Source of the DNA: Anaerolineae bacterium
GTDB taxonomy: Bacteria > Chloroflexota > Anaerolineae > Aggregatilineales > Phototrophicaceae
Reading direction: 5' to 3'
Assembly (NCBI GenBank): GCA_022822305.1
Contig: JAJEBY010000016.1
Location: forward strand, 806,001 to 870,000
Length of the DNA stretch: 64,000 bases
Shown piece by piece: positions 33,562 through 44,487 of the stretch; position 1 is the stretch's first letter, and every line of letters starts with the position of its first letter. A model generated the notes under the pieces. That model ran no database searches. It was given only the letters and a program-made list of their open reading frames with translations, and was not told where the DNA came from. A program made the position numbers and the translations under genes.

Positions 33562-35040
33562 CTAGGTCATTGTGTCGTAGACTTGCGCGACGAACGCGCG
33601 CGCCTCCGCCTCGGTAGTTACCGTGTCGGTCGCCTGCTCCTCCCGCAACGCCGTCAGCAGTTGTCCGATGATAGGTCCGCGATTGATGTTCAGCTGGGCC
33701 ATGATGTCATCGCCGTTCAAAAGCAGTTCGGGATAAACGAGGCTATTGCGGAAACTGAACCAGGCGTCCAGCAAGATGGTCGTGTTTTCTACGAAACGCA
33801 GCCACCTGCGCTGATTCAGCTCAATGCCATGCTCGCTCAGGTAGACGGCTGCACTGAGCAAGGCGGTATCGATGCCGGATTCGCCAAGCTGAAACCAGAA
33901 GCGATGCCGCTCCAAGGCTGACCACTCGACCCTGTCATCGACGCGGTGAGCATTGTCGACCATCGCGAACAAAAGTTTCTCTTCCTCGTGGCTAAGGCGC
34001 AGCTGCCGTGCGACCACCACCACGATCGACTCAGAGCCTTCCCGGCGATCGTGGCTCGCGTTGCCATGGCCAAATTGATGCAATAGCGCCCCAAGAATCA
34101 TCAATTCACCGCGCCGCCGGCCATTGCCGTAGATTCGGGTGATGTGTTGCTGCAACTGCGGACGAAATCTATCCAATTGCATGATCAGTGTGCCAAAGTC
34201 GAAGGCGGCGGCTGTGTTGTCGCTTCGCTTCCCGCTGATGGCCGTCAGTAATGTGCTCATGCGCTCAACGGCCTGCATGCCGCTATCGGAGGCAATGCGA
34301 CTCGATTCTTGAGAAACCGGCGCTCTGGAAATCGAGCCTAGCCCGGGCACAACGGTATTGAGCAAGTCAAGATGTTTCAATACGCGCAACGCTCGAGCCG
34401 AGTCTTCGAGCGCCAGCAGCTTGAAGAATTCGTCGCGCAATCGCTCTGGCGATGTCGAGCGCATGCCTGGGCCGTGACTGCGAATCTGAGTCAAGGCGTC
34501 CGGATGAATCTTCAGTCCTAACTGCGCGCTTTGTCTGATCGCCCGCAAGGCGCGGAGCGGATCGGAAGCGATGGCGTCGCCCGAGCATAGACGGAGTACT
34601 TTGTCGCGCAGATCAGCGGCGCCTCCCAATGGGTCCAGCAGAAGGGCTAAATCACCGCGCACGTCAACCGCCATGGCATTAAAGGTGAAATCGCGATCGC
34701 GCAGATCGTCCTCCAGCGTCGCGCCGCGAAAGCGGGCGAAATCCACCAGAATTGTCTTGGAGTCGCGTTCCACAAAAACTCGCGCTACGCCGCGTTCCCG
34801 ATCCATTATGTACAAGTCAGCGTTCAGCCAGTCCGCCGATTGTCGCGCGATTTTCAGCGCATCGCCGTCTACCGCGATATCCACATCGGTAGTTTCAACG
34901 CGAAGGTAGGCGTCACGCACAGAGCCGCCGACAAGATATAGCGGGAGCTTCGGCGCCCTGCTTCGATACAACTCCTGCAGTTCGCGCACAAATGCCGGCC
35001 AGACCAGCAGCGGCGGAGCGTTATTCATCAAGGAGGGCAT
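33562..35040 (-). CDS. CCA tRNA nucleotidyltransferase/poly(A) polymerase family protein
   Basis: A 492-residue class II nucleotidyltransferase. The head domain has LYLVGGSVRDAYL, the metal-binding DVDIAVDGDA (D-x-D) and RDRDFTFNAMAVD, and the neck follows with DPLRALRAIRQSAQLGLKI. The C-terminal half (about 300-450) has an HD-like helical region (LLHQFGHGN). These enzymes add or repair the CCA end of tRNAs; an A-adding or poly(A) polymerase role cannot be separated by eye. The track start overlaps hpt by 20 bp; an ATG at 35028 gives an 8-bp ATGAATAA overlap and is equally likely. It is the last gene of the arg-car operon. Confidence 0.88.
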   Translation of the reverse strand: MPSLMNNAPPLLVWPAFVRELQELYRSRAPKLPLYLVGGSVRDAYLRVETTDVDIAVDGDALKIARQSADWLNADLYIMDRERGVARVFVERDSKTILVDFARFRGATLEDDLRDRDFTFNAMAVDVRGDLALLLDPLGGAADLRDKVLRLCSGDAIASDPLRALRAIRQSAQLGLKIHPDALTQIRSHGPGMRSTSPERLRDEFFKLLALEDSARALRVLKHLDLLNTVVPGLGSISRAPVSQESSRIASDSGMQAVERMSTLLTAISGKRSDNTAAAFDFGTLIMQLDRFRPQLQQHITRIYGNGRRRGELMILGALLHQFGHGNASHDRREGSESIVVVVARQLRLSHEEEKLLFAMVDNAHRVDDRVEWSALERHRFWFQLGESGIDTALLSAAVYLSEHGIELNQRRWLRFVENTTILLDAWFSFRNSLVYPELLLNGDDIMAQLNINRGPIIGQLLTALREEQATDTVTTEAEARAFVAQVYDTMT

Positions 35041-35584
35041 CCGGTCTCACGACGCCGACAAAGGGCAGATTGCGAAACCGCTCGTCCAGATCGAGTCCGT
35101 AACCGAAGACGAATTTGTTCTCGATATCGAAGCCGATGTAATCCACCTCTAATTCGATTTCCCGGCGAGACTGCTTGTTCAACAGCGCGCACAATTTCAA
35201 GCTGGCCGGCTCGCGATTGCGCAGCGTCTTGAGCACAAAGCCCAGCGTATGGCCGCTGTCAATGATATCCTCAACTACCAGTACGTGTTTCCCGCGAACA
35301 TCCGTCTGCAGATCCATATCGATGCGAACCGATCCCGAACTATGACGCGCGCCGACGCCGTAACTGCTCGCCGCCATGAAATCGATCATGTGCGGCACGT
35401 CCAGATGGCGAGACAGATCCGTCAAGAACATCACCCCGCCCTTCAATATGCAAAGCAGCAGCAAGTCAGGGCAGTCAGCGTAGTCTTCGCTGAGCTGTTT
35501 GCCGAGTTCAGCGATACGCGCCTGGAGCCGGTCTTCGTCGATCAGAATCTCGTCAAGATAGTGCTCGTAGGTCTGGACCTTCAC
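35021..35584 (-). CDS. hpt: Hypoxanthine phosphoribosyltransferase
   Basis: A 187-residue purine-salvage enzyme that joins hypoxanthine or guanine to PRPP. The PRPP motif is VLVVEDIIDSGHTL, the loop I motif LLCILKGGVMFLTDL, and the Ser-Tyr flap MAASSYG. The C-terminal VDYIGFDIENKFVFGYGLDLDERFRNLPFVG matches the base-binding end. It starts with GTG, 15 bp after carB, with AAAGGG upstream, and is translationally coupled to the CCA-type gene. Its presence links purine salvage to carbamoyl phosphate synthesis in one transcript. Confidence 0.93.
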   Translation of the reverse strand: MKVQTYEHYLDEILIDEDRLQARIAELGKQLSEDYADCPDLLLLCILKGGVMFLTDLSRHLDVPHMIDFMAASSYGVGARHSSGSVRIDMDLQTDVRGKHVLVVEDIIDSGHTLGFVLKTLRNREPASLKLCALLNKQSRREIELEVDYIGFDIENKFVFGYGLDLDERFRNLPFVGVVRPDALLDE

Positions 35585-35599
35585 CGGCGCACCCTTTCA

Positions 35600-38500
35600 C
35601 TATGTCGCGGATTGGCCGATGGCCGCGTAATGCGACTGCAAACTGCGAACCGCAAGCGGTTGTTCTCGCAAGCGACGGATACCCTGCACGCAAGCCGCCG
35701 CAGCGCTCATCGTGGTGATAATCGGTATGCTCAAGGCGTAGGCGCTGCTGCGGATCTCGACGCCATCGCTATGAGCCTGGCTTCCCAAAGGCGTATTGAT
35801 GATCAGATTAATTCGGCCCTCTCGCATCAGATCGATAATGCTTGGCACGCCTTGAGACAGCTTCTTTACCCGTTGATTCCGGATTCCCAAGCCATCCAGC
35901 CAGTCGGACGTGCCATCGGTAGCGACGAAGTCGAAACCGAAGCGGCTCAGGTCACGGGCGATCTTGCCGGCCGCGGCTTTATCAAAATCATTGACGCTGA
36001 TGAATACCGTGCCGCTGCTGGGGAGGGACGTGCCGGCGGCAATCTGTGACTTGACGAAGGCGTGCCCGAAGTTTGAGGCATGGCCCATGACTTCGCCCGT
36101 AGAACGCATTTCCGGTCCCAAGCGCGTATCAACGCCCGGGAACTTCTGAAACGGGAAGACAGCTTCTTTGATGAAGAATCGTTCAATCAGCGGTTCGGCA
36201 AGGAAACCGATATCTCGTAGCGTTTGGCCGGCGGCAATCCGAGCGCCATAGCTCGCCAGCGGATGACCGGTCGCCTTGCTGATGAATGGCACGGTGCGGC
36301 TCGCCCTCGGATTCACCTCAAGTACAAATACTTCATCGTCCTTGATGGCGAATTGAATGTTGAACAAGCCCTTGATTTGCATTGCCCTGCCGATTCTCCG
36401 CGTGTAGTCCCGAATAATATCGAGATGAAAGTAGCTGATTCTGTAGGGCGGCACCACGCTTGCGGAATCGCCGCTGTGCACGCCGGCCTGTTCGATATGC
36501 TGCATGATACCGCCGACGGTCACGTCTTCGCCATCAGCCAAGGCATCTACATCGACTTCATATGCATCATCGAGAAACTGATCAATCAAGACCGGATGCT
36601 CGCCCCAGACAACATGGTCATCCAGCCATTCCAAGAGCTGCGCCTCATCAAAGACGATGGCCATGCCTCGCCCACCGAGTACGTAACTGGGACGCACCAG
36701 CACCGGGTACCCAATCAGCTTTGCCGCCGATGACGCCTCGCTCCGCTCCAGGATGGTGGCGCCGACAGGCTGGGCAATCTTGAGCTCGCGCATCAAGTTG
36801 TTGAAGCGCTCTCGGTCTTCGGCCAGATCAATGGTATCGACTGAGGTGCCCCAAATCGGGGCGCCAAGCGCCTCCAGCTCGCGAGCGATGTTCAATGGCG
36901 TTTGACCGCCAAACTGAACGAGAATACCTTCGGGCGCCTCGCGGTCGACGATGTTCATCACATCTTCGGCGGTTAGCGGCTCAAAATATAAGCGATCGGC
37001 GGTGTCATAATCGGTGCTGACAGTCTCGGGATTGCAATTGACCATGATCGTCTCAAATCCCATTTTCTTGAGCGCGAAACAAGCATGGACACAACAGTAA
37101 TCGAACTCAACGCCTTGGCCGATACGATTCGGTCCGCCGCCTAAGATCATCACTTTGCGATTGTCAGTCGGTTTGGATTCGTCGCCCGTCTCGTAGGTCG
37201 AATACAGATAAGGCGTATGCGCTTCAAATTCTGCGGCGCAGGTATCCACTCGATAGAAGTGCGCGGTGACGCCCAACGACTTTCGATGCAGTCTGACGGT
37301 CCTTTCGTCTTGGCGCACAAGCTTGGCGACATAAGCGTCGCTGAATCCAAACCGCTTGAGTTTCAGCCAATCGGACTTGTCGAGGTCATCGATACACAAG
37401 TCTTTGTCCACCACGGAACGATGGATGGTCATTAGGCCCTGCATCTGTTGCACAAACCAGGGATCGAAGTGCGTGCGCTTGACGATCTCTTCGGGCGAGA
37501 CGCCGTCGCCGATGAGCGACGCCACTTGAAAGAGCCGCTGCGCCGTAGGCACGGTCAAGACTTCCGGTGACAGTGTGTCGGTGGTTTGGCTGCCAAAACC
37601 GTCAATGCCGATGTCGAGCGATCGGACAGCCTTTTGCAGCGCTTCGGGGAAGGTGCGGCCGATTCCCATGACTTCGCCAACAGCCTTCATTTGCGGACCC
37701 AAAACGGGATCTGCGCCCGCGAACTTCTTGAAGTCCCAGCGCGGTATCTTGACGACGACGTAATCGAGCGACGGTTCGAAGCTCGCAGGCGTTTGGCGCG
37801 TAATGTCGTTCGGAATTTCATCCAAGGTGTAGCCGACCGCGAGCAGCGCGGCAATCTTGGCTATGGGAAATCCGGTGGCCTTGCTGGCCAACGCCGAGGA
37901 GCGCGATACGCGCGGATTCATCTCGATCACGTAGACGTCGCCATCGTCAGGATTAATGGCGTATTGCACGTTGGCGCCGCCGGTGGTGATACCGACCCGA
38001 TCGAAGATTTGACGGGACATGTTGCGCAGCCGCTGCATTTCCTTGTCGGTGAGTGTCTGCGCCGGCGCGATGGTAATGCTGTCGCCGGTGTGCACGCCCA
38101 TGGGATCGAGATTCTCGATGGAACAGACGACGACAAAGTTGCCAGCCGCATCGCGCATCAATTCCAGCTCGTATTCTTTCCAGCCCAGCAAACTCCGGTC
38201 AACCAGCACCTGCCCTACCGGGCTCTGGTGAATGCCATTTGCCGCCACTTCGCGCAATTCTTCCGCGTCATAGGCGACGCCTCCGCCCGCCCCTCCTAAG
38301 GTGAACGAGGGGCGAATGAGGATGGGGTAACCTATCTCGTCCGCGAATCTGAGCGCATCGTCGACTTTATCTACGACTTTGCTATCCGGCACATGCAAGC
38401 CGATCTCGCGCATGGTGTCATTGAATAGCTGTCGGTCTTCCGCCAGCAGAATGCTGGTCAGCGTGGCGCCGATCAACTCAACGCCGTGGCGCGCCAGGGC

Positions 38501-38818
38501 GCCCGATTCCTGCAATTGCACGGCGAGGTTTAGCGCGGTCTGGCCGCCGACTGTGGGCAAGACGGCATCTGGTTTTTCTTCCTCAATGATTTTTTCGCAA
38601 ATCTCGTGTGTCAAGGGCTCGATATAGGTAGCATCGGCGAATTCAGGGTCTGTCATGATGGTGGCCGGATTCGAATTCACCAGCACGACCCGGAAACCCT
38701 GCTGTTTCAAGGCTTTACAGGCTTGCACGCCGCTGTAGTCGAACTCACAAGCTTGACCGATGACTATTGGACCTGACCCAATAATCATGATCGTTTCGAT
38801 GTCTGTGCGCTTCGGCAT
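35600..38818 (-). CDS. carB: Carbamoyl phosphate synthase large subunit
   Basis: A 1072-residue CarB of normal length, with two ATP-grasp halves: [17 protein letters not shown] near residue 13 and [17 protein letters not shown] near 560 are the paired N-terminal signatures. It makes carbamoyl phosphate from bicarbonate, two ATP and ammonia passed from CarA, feeding both arginine and pyrimidine synthesis. The last 130 residues are the MGS-like allosteric domain. It begins 45 bp after carA and runs into hpt after 15 bp. Confidence 0.97.
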
Positions 38819-38863: not shown

Positions 38864-39985
<1,122 letters not shown>

Positions 39986-39999
39986 CGGTGTCCTCGATC

Positions 40000-41229
40000 T
40001 TAAGAGCGATAATCGCCGTTGATACTGATGTAATCGTGACTGATATCGCAGGTCCAGATGATGGCTCTGCCGTCTCCCATACCACAATCCAGCGTGAAGC
40101 TGATCGAAGGCGCGGCCATGATCGCCGCCGCATCATCTTCCAGATAATCGGTGGGTGTGCCGCTGCGGAAGATCAAAAGACCGGGCTCAGATTCCGAAAC
40201 TGATTCTCCGGATTCTACCCAGAGCGATGATCGATCGGGATCAAAAGGCGCGTTTGCGCGTCCGGCGGCGGCCACAATTCGTCCCCAATTGGCGTCGCTG
40301 CCATAGAATGCGGACTTGGTCAGGACCGACGCGCCAATCGTTTGACCGATGCGTTCGGCTGCCGCTTCGGATTCGGCGTTGGTGATGTTTAAGGTGACGA
40401 ACTTGGTGACGCCTTCTCCATCTCGCACCACGGCCTGCGCCAAATGCTGCGCGAGCATATCCAAGGCCCGTTGAATCTGCGATAAGCCATGATCATCTGC
40501 GATATCGACGCCGCTCGCGCCGTTGCTCAGCAAGAAGACCGTATCATTTGTGCTGGTATCGCCGTCGACGACGATTCGATTATAGCTATGCCGCGTGGCT
40601 GCGTTGAGCGCCCGCTGAACATCCGGCTGCGCCAGCTTGGCATCGGTCACGATGACGCTCAGCATGGTCGCCATATTGGGCGCGATCATGCCCGCGCCTT
40701 TGACCACGCCGGCAAGCGTATAGGTCCCCTGCGTCGACTCCACCGTGACTGAAGCCAACTTCGGACGCGTGTCGGTAGTCATCATAGCGGCCGCCGCCTC
40801 GCGCCAATGATTGCCGAGCGCGTCACCGGCTAATTCAGCGCCGCGCCGTATCTTGTCCATGGGCAGGTGCGTGCCGATGACACCAGTCGACATGACCAGT
40901 ACTTGCTCCGGCGCCACGCCGAGCCGCGCTGCCACATTATCCGCCATCGCGCGCGCATTGGTCAATCCTTCCGCGCCGGTACAAGCGTTGGCGCTGATTG
41001 TGTTAATGGCCACGGCACGGATGCGCTGCGCGTCTCGCTGCAGGCGCTCCATGCCCAATAACACCGGCGCCGCTTTGACCATGTTGCGCGTGAACACGCC
41101 GGCCGTCGCGCAGTCGCTTTCGCTGGCGATCAAGGCGAAATCCAGCGCGCCGTCTTTCTTCAGTCCAGCGTGAACGCCGGCGGCTTGGAAACCCTCTACG
41201 GATGCGACATTAGGATTCAGCTTGATCAT
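40000..41229 (-). CDS. argJ: Glutamate N-acetyltransferase/amino-acid acetyltransferase ArgJ
   Basis: A 409-residue ArgJ, the enzyme that moves the acetyl group from N-acetylornithine to glutamate and so recycles it. The self-cleavage and active-site motif is KGAGMIAPNMATMLS, with Thr of ATML as the nucleophile; GVFTRNMVKAAPV and SANACTGAEG are other signatures. The true start is the ATG at 41229, 6 nt after GGAGG; the track's first residue is a TTG one codon earlier. It overlaps the end of argD by 20 bp. Having ArgJ implies the cyclic acetyl pathway, so a separate ArgE is not needed. Confidence 0.96.
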   Translation of the reverse strand: MIKLNPNVASVEGFQAAGVHAGLKKDGALDFALIASESDCATAGVFTRNMVKAAPVLLGMERLQRDAQRIRAVAINTISANACTGAEGLTNARAMADNVAARLGVAPEQVLVMSTGVIGTHLPMDKIRRGAELAGDALGNHWREAAAAMMTTDTRPKLASVTVESTQGTYTLAGVVKGAGMIAPNMATMLSVIVTDAKLAQPDVQRALNAATRHSYNRIVVDGDTSTNDTVFLLSNGASGVDIADDHGLSQIQRALDMLAQHLAQAVVRDGEGVTKFVTLNITNAESEAAAERIGQTIGASVLTKSAFYGSDANWGRIVAAAGRANAPFDPDRSSLWVESGESVSESEPGLLIFRSGTPTDYLEDDAAAIMAAPSISFTLDCGMGDGRAIIWTCDISHDYISINGDYRS

Positions 41230-42418
41230 CAATGCCCTCCAGGATGGAAGTCAGTTTCTCGACCAACTCGTCGACATGCTTCTTTTCGATGATCAGCGGC
41301 GGGATAAATCTAATCACGTTGCTTCCGGAACTTGCCAGCAGCAATCCATGCTCATAACCTTGGTTCACGATGCCTGCCGGCGGTATGTCCAGTTCGATGC
41401 CGGCGATCAAACCACGACCCCGCACATCGGTGATGTGAGGACTATTGATCTCGGACAAGCGCTCCAGCAGATAGTCGCCAACTTCTTTGACATGCTCCAT
41501 GAAGCCGTCGCTGATGACGCGATTGATCACCACTTCCGCGGCGCGCATGACGACGGCGCCGCCCGAAAATGTGGAACCGTGATCGCCCGGGCTCATGGCG
41601 CTGCCGACTTCCTCGTTCGTCAAAACTGCGCCAACGGGCAGACCGCCAGCCAGCGGCTTCGCCAGGGTCATGATATCCGGCGTCACACCGCTGAACGAAT
41701 ATGCCCAAAGCTCTCCGGTGCGGCCCATGCCGCACTGAATTTCATCGAAGATCAAAGCCGCTTGATGTTGATCGCAGAGCTGCCGCAAGGCCTGCAAAAA
41801 CTCCGCCGTCGCGATATTGATGCCGCCTTCACCCTGAATTGGCTCGACGATGACAGCCACCGTTTCGTCGTCGATGATCTCCGAGGCGCTTTCGATACTG
41901 TTGAATTCTCCAACGACCGCGCCGGGCACCATCGGTCTGAAGGGGATTTGGTACTTTTCCTTCGGCGTGATGGCCAGCGCTCCCATCGTCCGGCCGTGGA
42001 AGGCATCGCTGAAACTCACCACCTTGGTCTTGTGAGTCAACTCTTTGTTGTAGGCCAGCTTGCGGGCGAATTTCAACGCGCCTTCATTGGCTTCGGCGCC
42101 GCTATTGCAGAAGTAGACTTTCTCCGCGAACGAAATGCTGCAGAGCAGTTCAGCTAACTCGGCCAGCGCTTGCGTATGGTAAAGACCGCTGACATGGATC
42201 AATCCCGTGTCCATTTGCTGACCGACTGCCGCGTTCAGCTCTTGATCGCCATAGCCCAGGGCATTGACCGCAATTCCAGCGACCCAATCGGTATACGCCC
42301 GGCCCTCGGTATCGTAGAGCGTTACGCCTTCGCCGCGCGCGAGCACGAAATCCGGGCGAGCCGCCACCGGCACACTATAGTTTCGGTCTTTTTCAATTGC
42401 ATCAGCTTGAATCGTCAT
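41210..42418 (-). CDS. argD: Acetylornithine aminotransferase
   Basis: A 402-residue class III, PLP-dependent aminotransferase that turns N-acetylglutamate semialdehyde into N-acetylornithine. The signature LIFDEIQCGMGRTGELWAYSFSGVTPDIMTLAKPLAGGLPVG contains the PLP-contacting Asp and the Schiff-base Lys; VYFCNSGAEANEGALKFAR is the phosphate-binding part. AGAGGG precedes the ATG. It lies 29 bp after argB and overlaps argJ. Confidence 0.95.
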   Translation of the reverse strand: MTIQADAIEKDRNYSVPVAARPDFVLARGEGVTLYDTEGRAYTDWVAGIAVNALGYGDQELNAAVGQQMDTGLIHVSGLYHTQALAELAELLCSISFAEKVYFCNSGAEANEGALKFARKLAYNKELTHKTKVVSFSDAFHGRTMGALAITPKEKYQIPFRPMVPGAVVGEFNSIESASEIIDDETVAVIVEPIQGEGGINIATAEFLQALRQLCDQHQAALIFDEIQCGMGRTGELWAYSFSGVTPDIMTLAKPLAGGLPVGAVLTNEEVGSAMSPGDHGSTFSGGAVVMRAAEVVINRVISDGFMEHVKEVGDYLLERLSEINSPHITDVRGRGLIAGIELDIPPAGIVNQGYEHGLLLASSGSNVIRFIPPLIIEKKHVDELVEKLTSILEGIDDQAES

Positions 42419-42447: not shown

Positions 42448-43197
42448 CTAATGAATGAATGTGGTGCCGCCATCGCTTGCCCAGCCCTTAAGGTCCGTGA
42501 TGGTTACTCGCGGTACGCCCGCCAATAGCACTTCTAACGCCGATTCGACCTTTGGGATCATGCCGCCATGAATCACGCCGCTCGCAATCAGATGCCTCGC
42601 GTCCAACGCGGTCAACAGCTCGACCGGCTTGTCATCGACCAAAACACCGGCAACGTTTGAAATGAAAACGACATTGTCGGCTTCAATCGCCGTTGCCAAC
42701 GCGCCAGCCACAGGATCGGCATTGAGGTTGAAATTGCTGCATCGGCCCAGGCTGACTGGAGCGACTACCGGCGTAATATCAAGGTCAAGGACTGCCGTCA
42801 ATACTTCCGGACGCACCGATTCTACCGCGCCTGTGAAACACATATCGACATCGGGATGCTGCAACTTTCGCGCGCGCACCAAGCCTCGATCGACGCCGGA
42901 AAGCCCTTGCGCGTCCACACCAGCTTGCACGAGCTGCCGCACTACGCGTTTGTTCACGCTTCCGCACAAGACCATCTCTACCAATGCCAAAGACTCGGCA
43001 TCCGTTACACGAAGTCCGTCCACATAACGCGGCTCGATATGCAGCTTTTCTTGCAGTCGAGAAATCTCTTTGCCGCCACCATGGACGATCACAATCCGCT
43101 CGTCACGATCGGCGACCACGCGCGCAAATCGCCCTAACAACTCTGCGTCATCCAGATAGTGACCGGATATTTTAACAACTGAGATTGGCGCAGCCAC
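42448..43197 (-). CDS. argB: Acetylglutamate kinase
   Basis: A 249-residue amino-acid kinase that phosphorylates N-acetylglutamate, the second arginine step. Visible are VVKISGHYL at the start, the nucleotide-binding IVIVHGGGKEISRL, FNLNADPVAGALATAI and the closing GVIHGGMIPKVESALEVLLAGV. The length is short among ArgB proteins and lacks the long N-terminal helix of arginine-inhibited forms, which suggests weak or no feedback inhibition (inference). It starts with GTG, whose G is the last base of the argC stop TAG. Confidence 0.93.
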   Translation of the reverse strand: MAAPISVVKISGHYLDDAELLGRFARVVADRDERIVIVHGGGKEISRLQEKLHIEPRYVDGLRVTDAESLALVEMVLCGSVNKRVVRQLVQAGVDAQGLSGVDRGLVRARKLQHPDVDMCFTGAVESVRPEVLTAVLDLDITPVVAPVSLGRCSNFNLNADPVAGALATAIEADNVVFISNVAGVLVDDKPVELLTALDARHLIASGVIHGGMIPKVESALEVLLAGVPRVTITDLKGWASDGGTTFIH

Positions 43198-44198
43198 TAG
43201 ATCAAACCCAGCGTTTCCTCTATACCGAACATCAGATTCATATTTTGCAGCGCCTGGCTCGACGCGCCCTTGCGCAGGTTATCCGTTACGCTGGTGACAT
43301 GAACGTATCGCTCCAAGATCGGCGTGACGCTAATGACACATTTGTTGGTTTTTACGGCGTGCTTGAGACTGGCCTGCTCGCTCAATGGCAGGACATCGAC
43401 CAATGGCTCATTATCGTACACTTCGCTGTAGACGTCATGTACCTGATCACTGCTAACGTTGTCATCCAATGTGAGATAAATGCTCGACATAAGCCCACGA
43501 TCCACGGGCAGAAGATGGGGACAAAATATAACCGGACCGACGCGGTCATCGATTTTGCGCAACTCCTGTTCCATCTCTCCAATATGTCGGTGCGAGCGCC
43601 CAACCTTGTACGGCAAAAGGTTGCCATAAACCTCGGCGAAATGTGTGGTGATAGAAGGTTTGCGCCCAGCGCCGGTGACACCTGATTTCGCGTCAACGAC
43701 AATTGGAACGTCCGGCTTGATCACGCGCTGCCGCAGCAACGGGAACAATCCAAGCAGCGTCGTTGTGGGATAGCAGCCCGGCGTCGCCACCGCATCAGCA
43801 TGCGCGATCTCTGCGCGATTGATTTCCGGAAGTCCATACGGCGCTGCCAACAGTTCTGGATGCGGATGCGCGCTGTCATAATCGGCGCTGTAGGCTTCGG
43901 CGCTATCGAGCCTCAGATCAGCCGACAAGTCAACCACCTTGATCCCGGCATCGAGCCCGCGCTTGGCCACCCGCGCCGAAGCCGTATGCGGCAGCGCGAG
44001 AAATATGACGTCTACGTTGGCCAGCGACGCCTTATCGGGCGCCACAAATCGCAGCGACGTCCCGGGTACAGGTTGTCCTTCATAAGCGCTCGATGTCGCG
44101 AAAACCAATTCTACGCCGGGGTGGCCGCTCAGCAACTCGACGAGGTCGAGACCCGCGTAGCCCGACCCGCCGAAGATTCCGGCACGAATCACCGCCAT
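43197..44198 (-). CDS. argC: N-acetyl-gamma-glutamyl-phosphate reductase
   Basis: A 333-residue dehydrogenase that reduces N-acetylglutamyl phosphate with NADPH. The Rossmann motif GIFGGSGYAGLDLVELLSGHP opens the protein. The catalytic Cys is in VATPGCYPTTTLLGLFPLL, and the SGVTGAGRKP loop and HRHIGEMEQEL His motif follow. I use the ATG at 44198, which AGGAGG precedes at 6 nt; the track adds seven codons. It is the first gene of the argCBDJ-carAB-hpt-cca operon, preceded by an attenuator-like terminator and a promoter. Confidence 0.96.
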   Translation of the reverse strand: MAVIRAGIFGGSGYAGLDLVELLSGHPGVELVFATSSAYEGQPVPGTSLRFVAPDKASLANVDVIFLALPHTASARVAKRGLDAGIKVVDLSADLRLDSAEAYSADYDSAHPHPELLAAPYGLPEINRAEIAHADAVATPGCYPTTTLLGLFPLLRQRVIKPDVPIVVDAKSGVTGAGRKPSITTHFAEVYGNLLPYKVGRSHRHIGEMEQELRKIDDRVGPVIFCPHLLPVDRGLMSSIYLTLDDNVSSDQVHDVYSEVYDNEPLVDVLPLSEQASLKHAVKTNKCVISVTPILERYVHVTSVTDNLRKGASSQALQNMNLMFGIEETLGLI

Positions 44199-44213
44199 CA
44201 ATACCCTCCTTAC

Positions 44214-44250
44214 AAACAAAAAACCCTGACCATTTTCTTGAGATCAGGGT
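44214..44250 (-). terminator. Attenuator-like terminator hairpin in the argC leader
   Basis: On the minus strand ACCCTGA and TCAGGGT form a 7-bp stem with a 14-nt loop, followed by TTTTTT-GTTTG and then directly by the argC AGGAGG. No gene lies upstream on this strand, only the argC promoter, so this hairpin sits inside the argC leader and should stop or reduce transcription of the whole operon under some condition. A leader segment TTCAGCGTG could pair with part of its 5' arm as an antiterminator. Confidence 0.75.
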
Positions 44251-44402
44251 GTAAACGACGGTTTTGCGGAAAATGTATCATTCCAAAGCGAAACAGACCA
44301 CGCTGAACTCGTTTTGCGGATGAGCTGGCCTACGCCTGCACTGCACAACCTGCGCTGTAGTCAGTTTCAAAGTCACGCTTCCTCACTGCGGATACTTGGT
44401 GA

Positions 44403-44432
44403 ATTCTAAATGAAAAGCATCAATCCCGTCAA
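44403..44432 (-). promoter_or_regulatory. Sigma-70 promoter of the argC operon
   Basis: On the minus strand TTGACG (44427-44432), an 18-bp spacer and TAGAAT (44403-44408). The predicted start near 44396 gives a leader of about 200 nt that includes the terminator hairpin. The leader also holds a 10-bp direct repeat TCCGCAAAAC (44261-44270 and 44311-44320), exactly 50 bp apart. Confidence 0.6.
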
Positions 44433-44466
44433 GAAATGGGCGCAACCTTATGCACTTTTCCGTTTT

Positions 44467-44487
44467 CCTTGTGCAAGTTGCACCATG
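44467..44487. promoter_or_regulatory. Candidate operator palindrome upstream of argC
   Basis: A near-palindrome with left arm CCTTGTGCAA, central G and right arm TTGCACCATG. The core GTGCAA-G-TTGCAC is perfect. It matches the same ideal palindrome as the gltB site at 19 of 21 positions and sits about 81 bp upstream of the predicted argC start, against about 78 bp for gltB. In the 841-bp argC-sigA gap, this site, the two promoters, the argC attenuator and the sigA leader are all I can identify. Confidence 0.6.

Follow-up and report, generated by a model that had tools for sequence, protein, structure and literature searches.

A predicted arginine attenuator with an arginine-codon leader peptide upstream of argC in Anaerolineae and related Chloroflexota

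Introduction

What decides whether an arginine biosynthesis operon is read past its leader in a member of the Anaerolineae? The question is raised by a locus in the window (the whole stretch of 64,000 nucleotides that was analysed), where argC, argB, argD, argJ, carA, carB, hpt, and a cca-type gene are closely spaced and all point in one direction (Table 1). A leader of 198 nt (44199-44396, minus strand) lies between the promoter and argC. The initial annotation had described an attenuator-like leader free of genes and without an evident long leader peptide, had put no name to the sensor, and had named conservation of the leader in related argC genes as a test. We compared the leader with those of other Chloroflexota metagenome assemblies, and the comparison points to arginine codons in a short leader peptide as the probable sensor.

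No full-length carB other than that of the operon was found in the genome, and arginine supply should therefore also bear on the carbamoyl phosphate available for pyrimidines unless there is an internal promoter. On the same contig but outside the window, at a distance of about 34 kb, we found a distant second ArgC homologue (36% identical; G000:C16:884399-885400). This homologue occurs genus-wide and is possibly a LysY-type or alternative-pathway enzyme.

Table 1. Features of the leader and operon, in order of transcription (positions in the window).
Feature	Positions	Strand	Evidence
Conserved element GTGCAACTTGCACAAGGAAAACGGAAAAGTGCATAA 5' of the promoter; candidate operator	44448..44483	-	sequence conservation
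Sigma-70 type promoter, TTGACG (44432-44427) / TAGAAT (44408-44403), 18-nt spacer	44403..44432	-	
Leader peptide ORF (M)KLTTAQVVQCRRRPAHPQNEFSVVCFALE, then stop; 30 codons, TTG start at 44370	44278..44370	-	same layout in 29 relatives and order-wide
Arg codons AGG CGT AGG (Arg-Arg-Arg); putative sensor, predicted ribosome stall site	44329..44337	-	
Antiterminator segment GAGUUCAGCGUG, within the leader ORF	44299..44310	-	complementarity and covariation
Intrinsic terminator ACCCTGATC-N10-GGTCAGGGT plus six T	44218..44250	-	fold, -13.5 kcal/mol
Shine-Dalgarno (SD) sequence of argC, AAGGAGGG	44204..44211	-	
argC	43197..44198	-	TIGR01850, 340.6 bits
argB	42448..43197	-	TIGR00761, 197.9 bits
argD	41210..42418	-	TIGR00707, 461 bits
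argJ, start codon uncertain	40000..41232	-	NF003802, 454.9 bits
carA, likely ATG at 39985	38864..39985	-	TIGR01368, 472 bits; match from residue 37 of a longer ORF
carB	35600..38818	-	NF003671, 1587.7 bits
hpt	35021..35584	-	TIGR01203, 202 bits
cca-type tRNA nucleotidyltransferase	33562..35040	-	NF009814, 109.9 bits, under the curated cut-off

Elements of the leader in the window

The leader described as having no gene is largely occupied by an ORF. Preceded by an SD-like GAGG (44384-44381) and closed by a stop codon at 44280-44278, the ORF of the window holds just three consecutive Arg codons and uses TTG as its start. The antiterminator starts 18 nt past the last of these Arg codons and lies inside the ORF, in frame, where it is read as Glu-Phe-Ser-Val.

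The leader ends in a terminator hairpin, ACCCTGATCTCAAGAAAATGGTCAGGGTTTTTT (44250-44218), with a U tract, directly 5' of the argC SD sequence. A hairpin with six U had been annotated at this place; the hairpin and the six T were borne out, but the stem has 9 bp, including one G.U, rather than 7. Our terminator scanner passed over it owing to its 10-nt loop, and direct folding found it. The segment TTCAGCGTG, previously proposed to pair with the 5' arm, does so and could be extended to a full antiterminator, GAGTTCAGCGTG (44310-44299), whose partner, at -13.1 kcal/mol, is CACCCTGATCTC, comprising the terminator's 5' arm and the beginning of the loop. Among the relatives, 16 conserved both the terminator and the 5' half of its loop, the latter because the antiterminator pairs with the arm and the loop start alike. 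The 10-bp repeat TCCGCAAAAC, which the initial annotation had also pointed out, does occur twice, 50 bp apart (44320-44311 and 44270-44261), but it was present in none of the 29 relatives and has no visible role.

Folding of the whole window leader favoured the terminator over the antiterminator, and the mechanism therefore requires that folding be kinetic and co-transcriptional. In stability the fold was not unusual (z of -0.77 against shuffles), and a single-sequence fold no stabler than shuffles makes structure alone uninformative. No separate conserved pause hairpin of the 1:2 type was identified in the leaders.

The previously annotated promoter at 44403-44432 stands; TTGAC was found at the matching distance in nearly all same-genus loci and the promoter position is conserved in the genus. 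The element 5' of it follows the pattern GTGCA-N3-TGCACAA-N14-TGCATAA. Nearly all same-genus leaders carry TGCACA-N15-TGC[ACT]TA 43 nt before TTGAC (counted from TGCACA to TTGAC), and the element is also found in several other genera of the same family. TGCACA-N15-TGCMTAR had only two matches genome-wide. The element is a candidate operator for a regulator other than ArgR.

Conservation among same-genus leaders

The same-genus set comprised 30 distinct argC leaders, namely the window and 29 relatives. A short leader ORF between the promoter and the first structural gene was present in the window and throughout the 30 loci, and all 30 shared the same order of parts: an Arg run, an in-frame antiterminator, and a stop codon. 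For this comparison the reading frame was set by the antiterminator; in two loci (L030 and L042) the automatically chosen start remains too far downstream. The encoded peptides differ (for example MSQALSAILEVRRRRLTRFEFSVAFLCC, MTRRRRRLKTRMEIGADVPGC, and MSKVKVEAQEIRRRSRATDEFSAGPLCW), and between the parts of the leader the sequence varies freely. The antiterminator core stands exactly 19 nt from the stop codon in 29 of the 30 loci and 22 nt from it in the window; this strict spacing is kept although the encoded residues vary.

We counted helix pairs with both strands anchored by sequence and not by pairing. Seven of the eight positions of the antiterminator helix were paired in at least 29 of the 30 genomes, and position 4 is a U.U mismatch in 22 loci. 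Two compensatory changes were found: G-C to A-U at position 1 in L040 and A-U to G-C at position 7 in L042, the latter position being G.U in four relatives. Single-locus antiterminator duplexes in the genus were mostly not significant against shuffles, a within-locus test of weak power here, and the case thus rests on comparison. At least four Arg within six residues were encoded in 21 of the 30 loci (1.7 expected), with the other nine falling short. Three Arg in six residues often arise by chance (expected in 10.9 of 30 loci). The proposal of an attenuator-like leader of the arg operon in the initial annotation gains strong support from the 30 conserved leaders in which terminator and antiterminator covary.

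Conservation across the order, class, and phylum

A further 60 loci were taken from the order, 54 of them with a strong terminator. An Arg-dense ORF (at least four Arg in six residues) ending near the terminator was found in 52 of these 54; shuffles preserving dinucleotides would lead one to expect 3.8. The residue next in frequency reached such density in 7 of the 54. The antiterminator and terminator change together between families. In f1 the peptide PRRRSRRPxxxEVxxGFLR accompanies GAGGTC and GACCTC as the complementary segments, in f3 PRRPRRRPAPxxxGPA accompanies GGTCCGG and CCGGACC, and in f8 SPRRERRSRPxQMRFETRFCVG accompanies GAGGTTCG and CGAACCTC. Over 97 loci the duplex of antiterminator and terminator had a mean of -18.5 kcal/mol in its native form and -13.7 kcal/mol with terminator halves swapped between families. 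Because related loci are not independent, this figure is less safe than the result by family, in which 13 of 15 families went in the expected direction.

Arg codon usage in the leaders (CGT 179, CGC 158, AGG 42, CGA 10, CGG 7, AGA 2) shows that the codons move freely among synonymous spellings, while the Arg residues, the frame, the antiterminator, and the position of the stop persist; what selection preserves would thus be the translation of Arg codons. At the median locus, 9 nt separate the end of the Arg run from the start of the antiterminator. The stop codon lies a median of 30 nt from the terminator (about 28 nt in the window), a gap that leaves the terminator free to form beside a ribosome at the stop.

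Beyond the order, the design recurred in certain other families of the class and in f34, with MKKQMLTNLFSPALRLRRPRTNEVRWACAVCAA followed by CCCCCCGAACCTC. We take f34 to be Herpetosiphon; one of its genomes is presumably Herpetosiphon aurantiacus DSM 785. Three controls with Anaerolineae names (L051, L052, and L079) also had the Arg leader and terminator. The design was absent from f24 (Chloroflexus-like), f19 (Dehalococcoides-like), and most other members of the phylum examined, and was not seen at argC in the Proteobacteria and Clostridia controls. Arg-rich matches with terminators at argC in controls from other phyla were rejected, since most of them come from the C-terminal end of a preceding gene whose product finishes in RRRKQFSKR and which we read as that of ribosomal protein S9. 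The comparison yields about 90 leaders with covarying antiterminator and terminator.

Within the pathway, argG of f4 and f6 (L257, L258, and L282) has its own Arg-rich leader ORF and terminator (SVSRLRRRIRRLHIGLAENFGVC; NVRARRTRRNRSGPVRRCAAR), so that the mechanism appears to be used at least twice. Among the loci examined, argF had no such leader and the argG leader was confined to these two families.

Proposed mechanism and alternative explanations

These observations make it very probable that transcription of the argCBDJ-carAB-hpt-cca operon is attenuated in its leader by the ribosome, in response to arginine specifically. Translation of the leader peptide would begin in the wake of RNA polymerase. 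If arginyl-tRNA runs short, the ribosome would stall at the Arg codons (44337-44329) and leave GAGUUCAGCGUG free to pair with CACCCUGAUCUC, which spans the 5' arm and the first part of the loop of the terminator, and transcription would continue into the operon. With ample arginine, the ribosome would pass over the antiterminator to the stop codon, covering the antiterminator in passing; the terminator could then form downstream of it, and transcription would end before argC. The ORF, the Arg run, the complementarity and covariation of antiterminator and terminator, the fixed spacing, the terminator, and the promoter come from the comparison of leaders. For stalling, coupling, and the direction of the response we infer from established attenuators, following the model in PMC1183508, and an effect on the whole operon would be expected.

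Masking of the antiterminator may be partial in the genus. There its core lies 20-27 nt ahead of the stop codon, which would place it immediately 5' of a ribosome that has come to rest on that codon. In f1 about 9 nt separate the end of the extended helix from the stop codon, and in f3 the helix overlaps the stop. In the genus, masking may be a matter of timing, or it may rely on sequestration of the antiterminator by a segment further upstream.

Some of the same features would suit other kinds of control. An Arg-rich leader peptide ahead of arg and carAB genes could be an arrest peptide that, while still nascent, captures free arginine or ornithine inside the ribosomal tunnel, as in SpeFL or the fungal arginine attenuator peptide, with the metabolite rather than tRNA charging in control, and a fixed distance from antiterminator to stop could suit arrest near the stop codon. 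Outside the Arg run, however, the peptide is not conserved between families (compare MTRRRRGINREMEIGADLPDC with PRRPRRRPAPVTTGPA), and only the run and the pairing segment persist. The Glu-Phe-Ser residues are themselves accounted for by pairing, the change of Glu to Lys in L040 being matched by a change in the terminator, and we consider an arrest peptide improbable. A metabolite riboswitch or an RNA-binding protein, and not translation, might instead choose between terminator and antiterminator, since alternative pairing alone fits any class of attenuator and the window fold holds other helices. This is less probable still: the window has no Rfam match, its leader is no more stable than shuffles, the sequence between the parts varies freely, and what is conserved across the order is Arg codons, reading frame, and stop position.

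We give hardly any credence to the reading of the hairpin as a plain or constitutive terminator that merely lowers expression, with the ORF a coincidence. The hairpin is strong, and GC-rich DNA has many short ORFs with Arg codons (three Arg in six residues appeared in about a third of shuffles), but the order-wide excess of dense ORFs concerns Arg only, the antiterminator covaries, and its distance to the stop is nearly invariant. Just as slight is the chance that a T-box riboswitch or repression by ArgR is the main control; the sequence already refutes it. These genomes do contain T-boxes, three of them in the genome of the window (other families of the order, G037-G052, have 3 to 9 per genome, against 1 to 3 in the genus of the window). 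In the window itself, however, neither the T-box RF00230 nor any other Rfam family matched at gathering score, in keeping with the initial annotation, which had seen no T-box. The C-terminal domain of ArgR (PF02863) was found in 0 of 61 genomes, and control genomes gave matches; the N-terminal domain (PF01316) had no match in the genome of the window. The arginine-codon attenuator thus remains our preferred reading, and the sensor is most likely the leader peptide, in a layout conserved across the order and beyond; the initial annotation is not supported where it saw no long leader peptide.

More tentatively, and at less than even chances, such Chloroflexota may have a two-tier control of arginine without ArgR, in which the first attenuator with Arg codons described for arginine biosynthesis is joined by a dedicated regulator at TGCACAA-N14-TGCATAA, and the carB of the operon ties carbamoyl phosphate to the ribosome's reading of arginine.

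Comparison with known systems

Attenuation across an order of the Chloroflexota and beyond, in place of ArgR, would account for how arginine is controlled in a large group that lacks genetics, and it gives a clean prediction that may be testable in the cultured relative Herpetosiphon, if our identification of it holds. Since Rfam does not see leaders of this kind, the set of about 90 is also of use in annotation.

For Trp, His, Thr, Phe, and the branched-chain amino acids, attenuation of biosynthetic operons by the ribosome is textbook knowledge. As in the trp, his, leu, thr, ilv, and phe leaders of Proteobacteria, a short ORF rich in the codon of the product is followed here by an antiterminator that competes with an intrinsic terminator, and the SD sequence of the first gene lies 3' of the terminator. 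The leaders described here differ from these in their amino acid (arginine) and phylum (Chloroflexota), in the position of the antiterminator inside the leader ORF, and in that no separate 1:2 pause hairpin was found. The fungal arginine attenuator peptide is likewise an Arg-related leader peptide, encoded by a uORF ahead of a carbamoyl-phosphate synthase gene, but it is eukaryotic, acts through arginine-induced arrest by the nascent chain, and involves no transcription terminator. T-box riboswitches (RF00230) also control amino acid genes by antitermination; unlike the present leaders, they bind uncharged tRNA directly.

The leader ORF of speF in Salmonella and E. coli (orf34/SpeFL; PMC6386406) resembles ours in having Arg codons in a row, where low arginine makes ribosomes pause. 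It serves polyamine synthesis, however, and acts via Rho, accessibility of the RBS, and RNase G, with no arginine biosynthesis operon and no intrinsic terminator switch. By their own statement, the authors of a 2010 survey (PMC2965389) knew of no leader peptide system demonstrated outside Proteobacteria and Actinobacteria before their Firmicutes cases. Systems for trp, ilv, leu, cys, and his have been reported in other phyla (PMC1262725, PMC9413887, and PMC2965389). The actinobacterial trp, ilvB, and leuS attenuators (PMC1262725) and the Firmicutes his leaders (PMC9413887) were predicted by the same comparative logic as ours, for other amino acids and other phyla, and the available parts of these papers describe no arginine attenuator. 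Our search of the open-access literature returned neither an arginine attenuator at an operon for arginine biosynthesis nor one in Chloroflexota. Provisionally, then, the mechanism is one long known from these systems, and its specificity for arginine, its phylum, and its replacement of ArgR look new.
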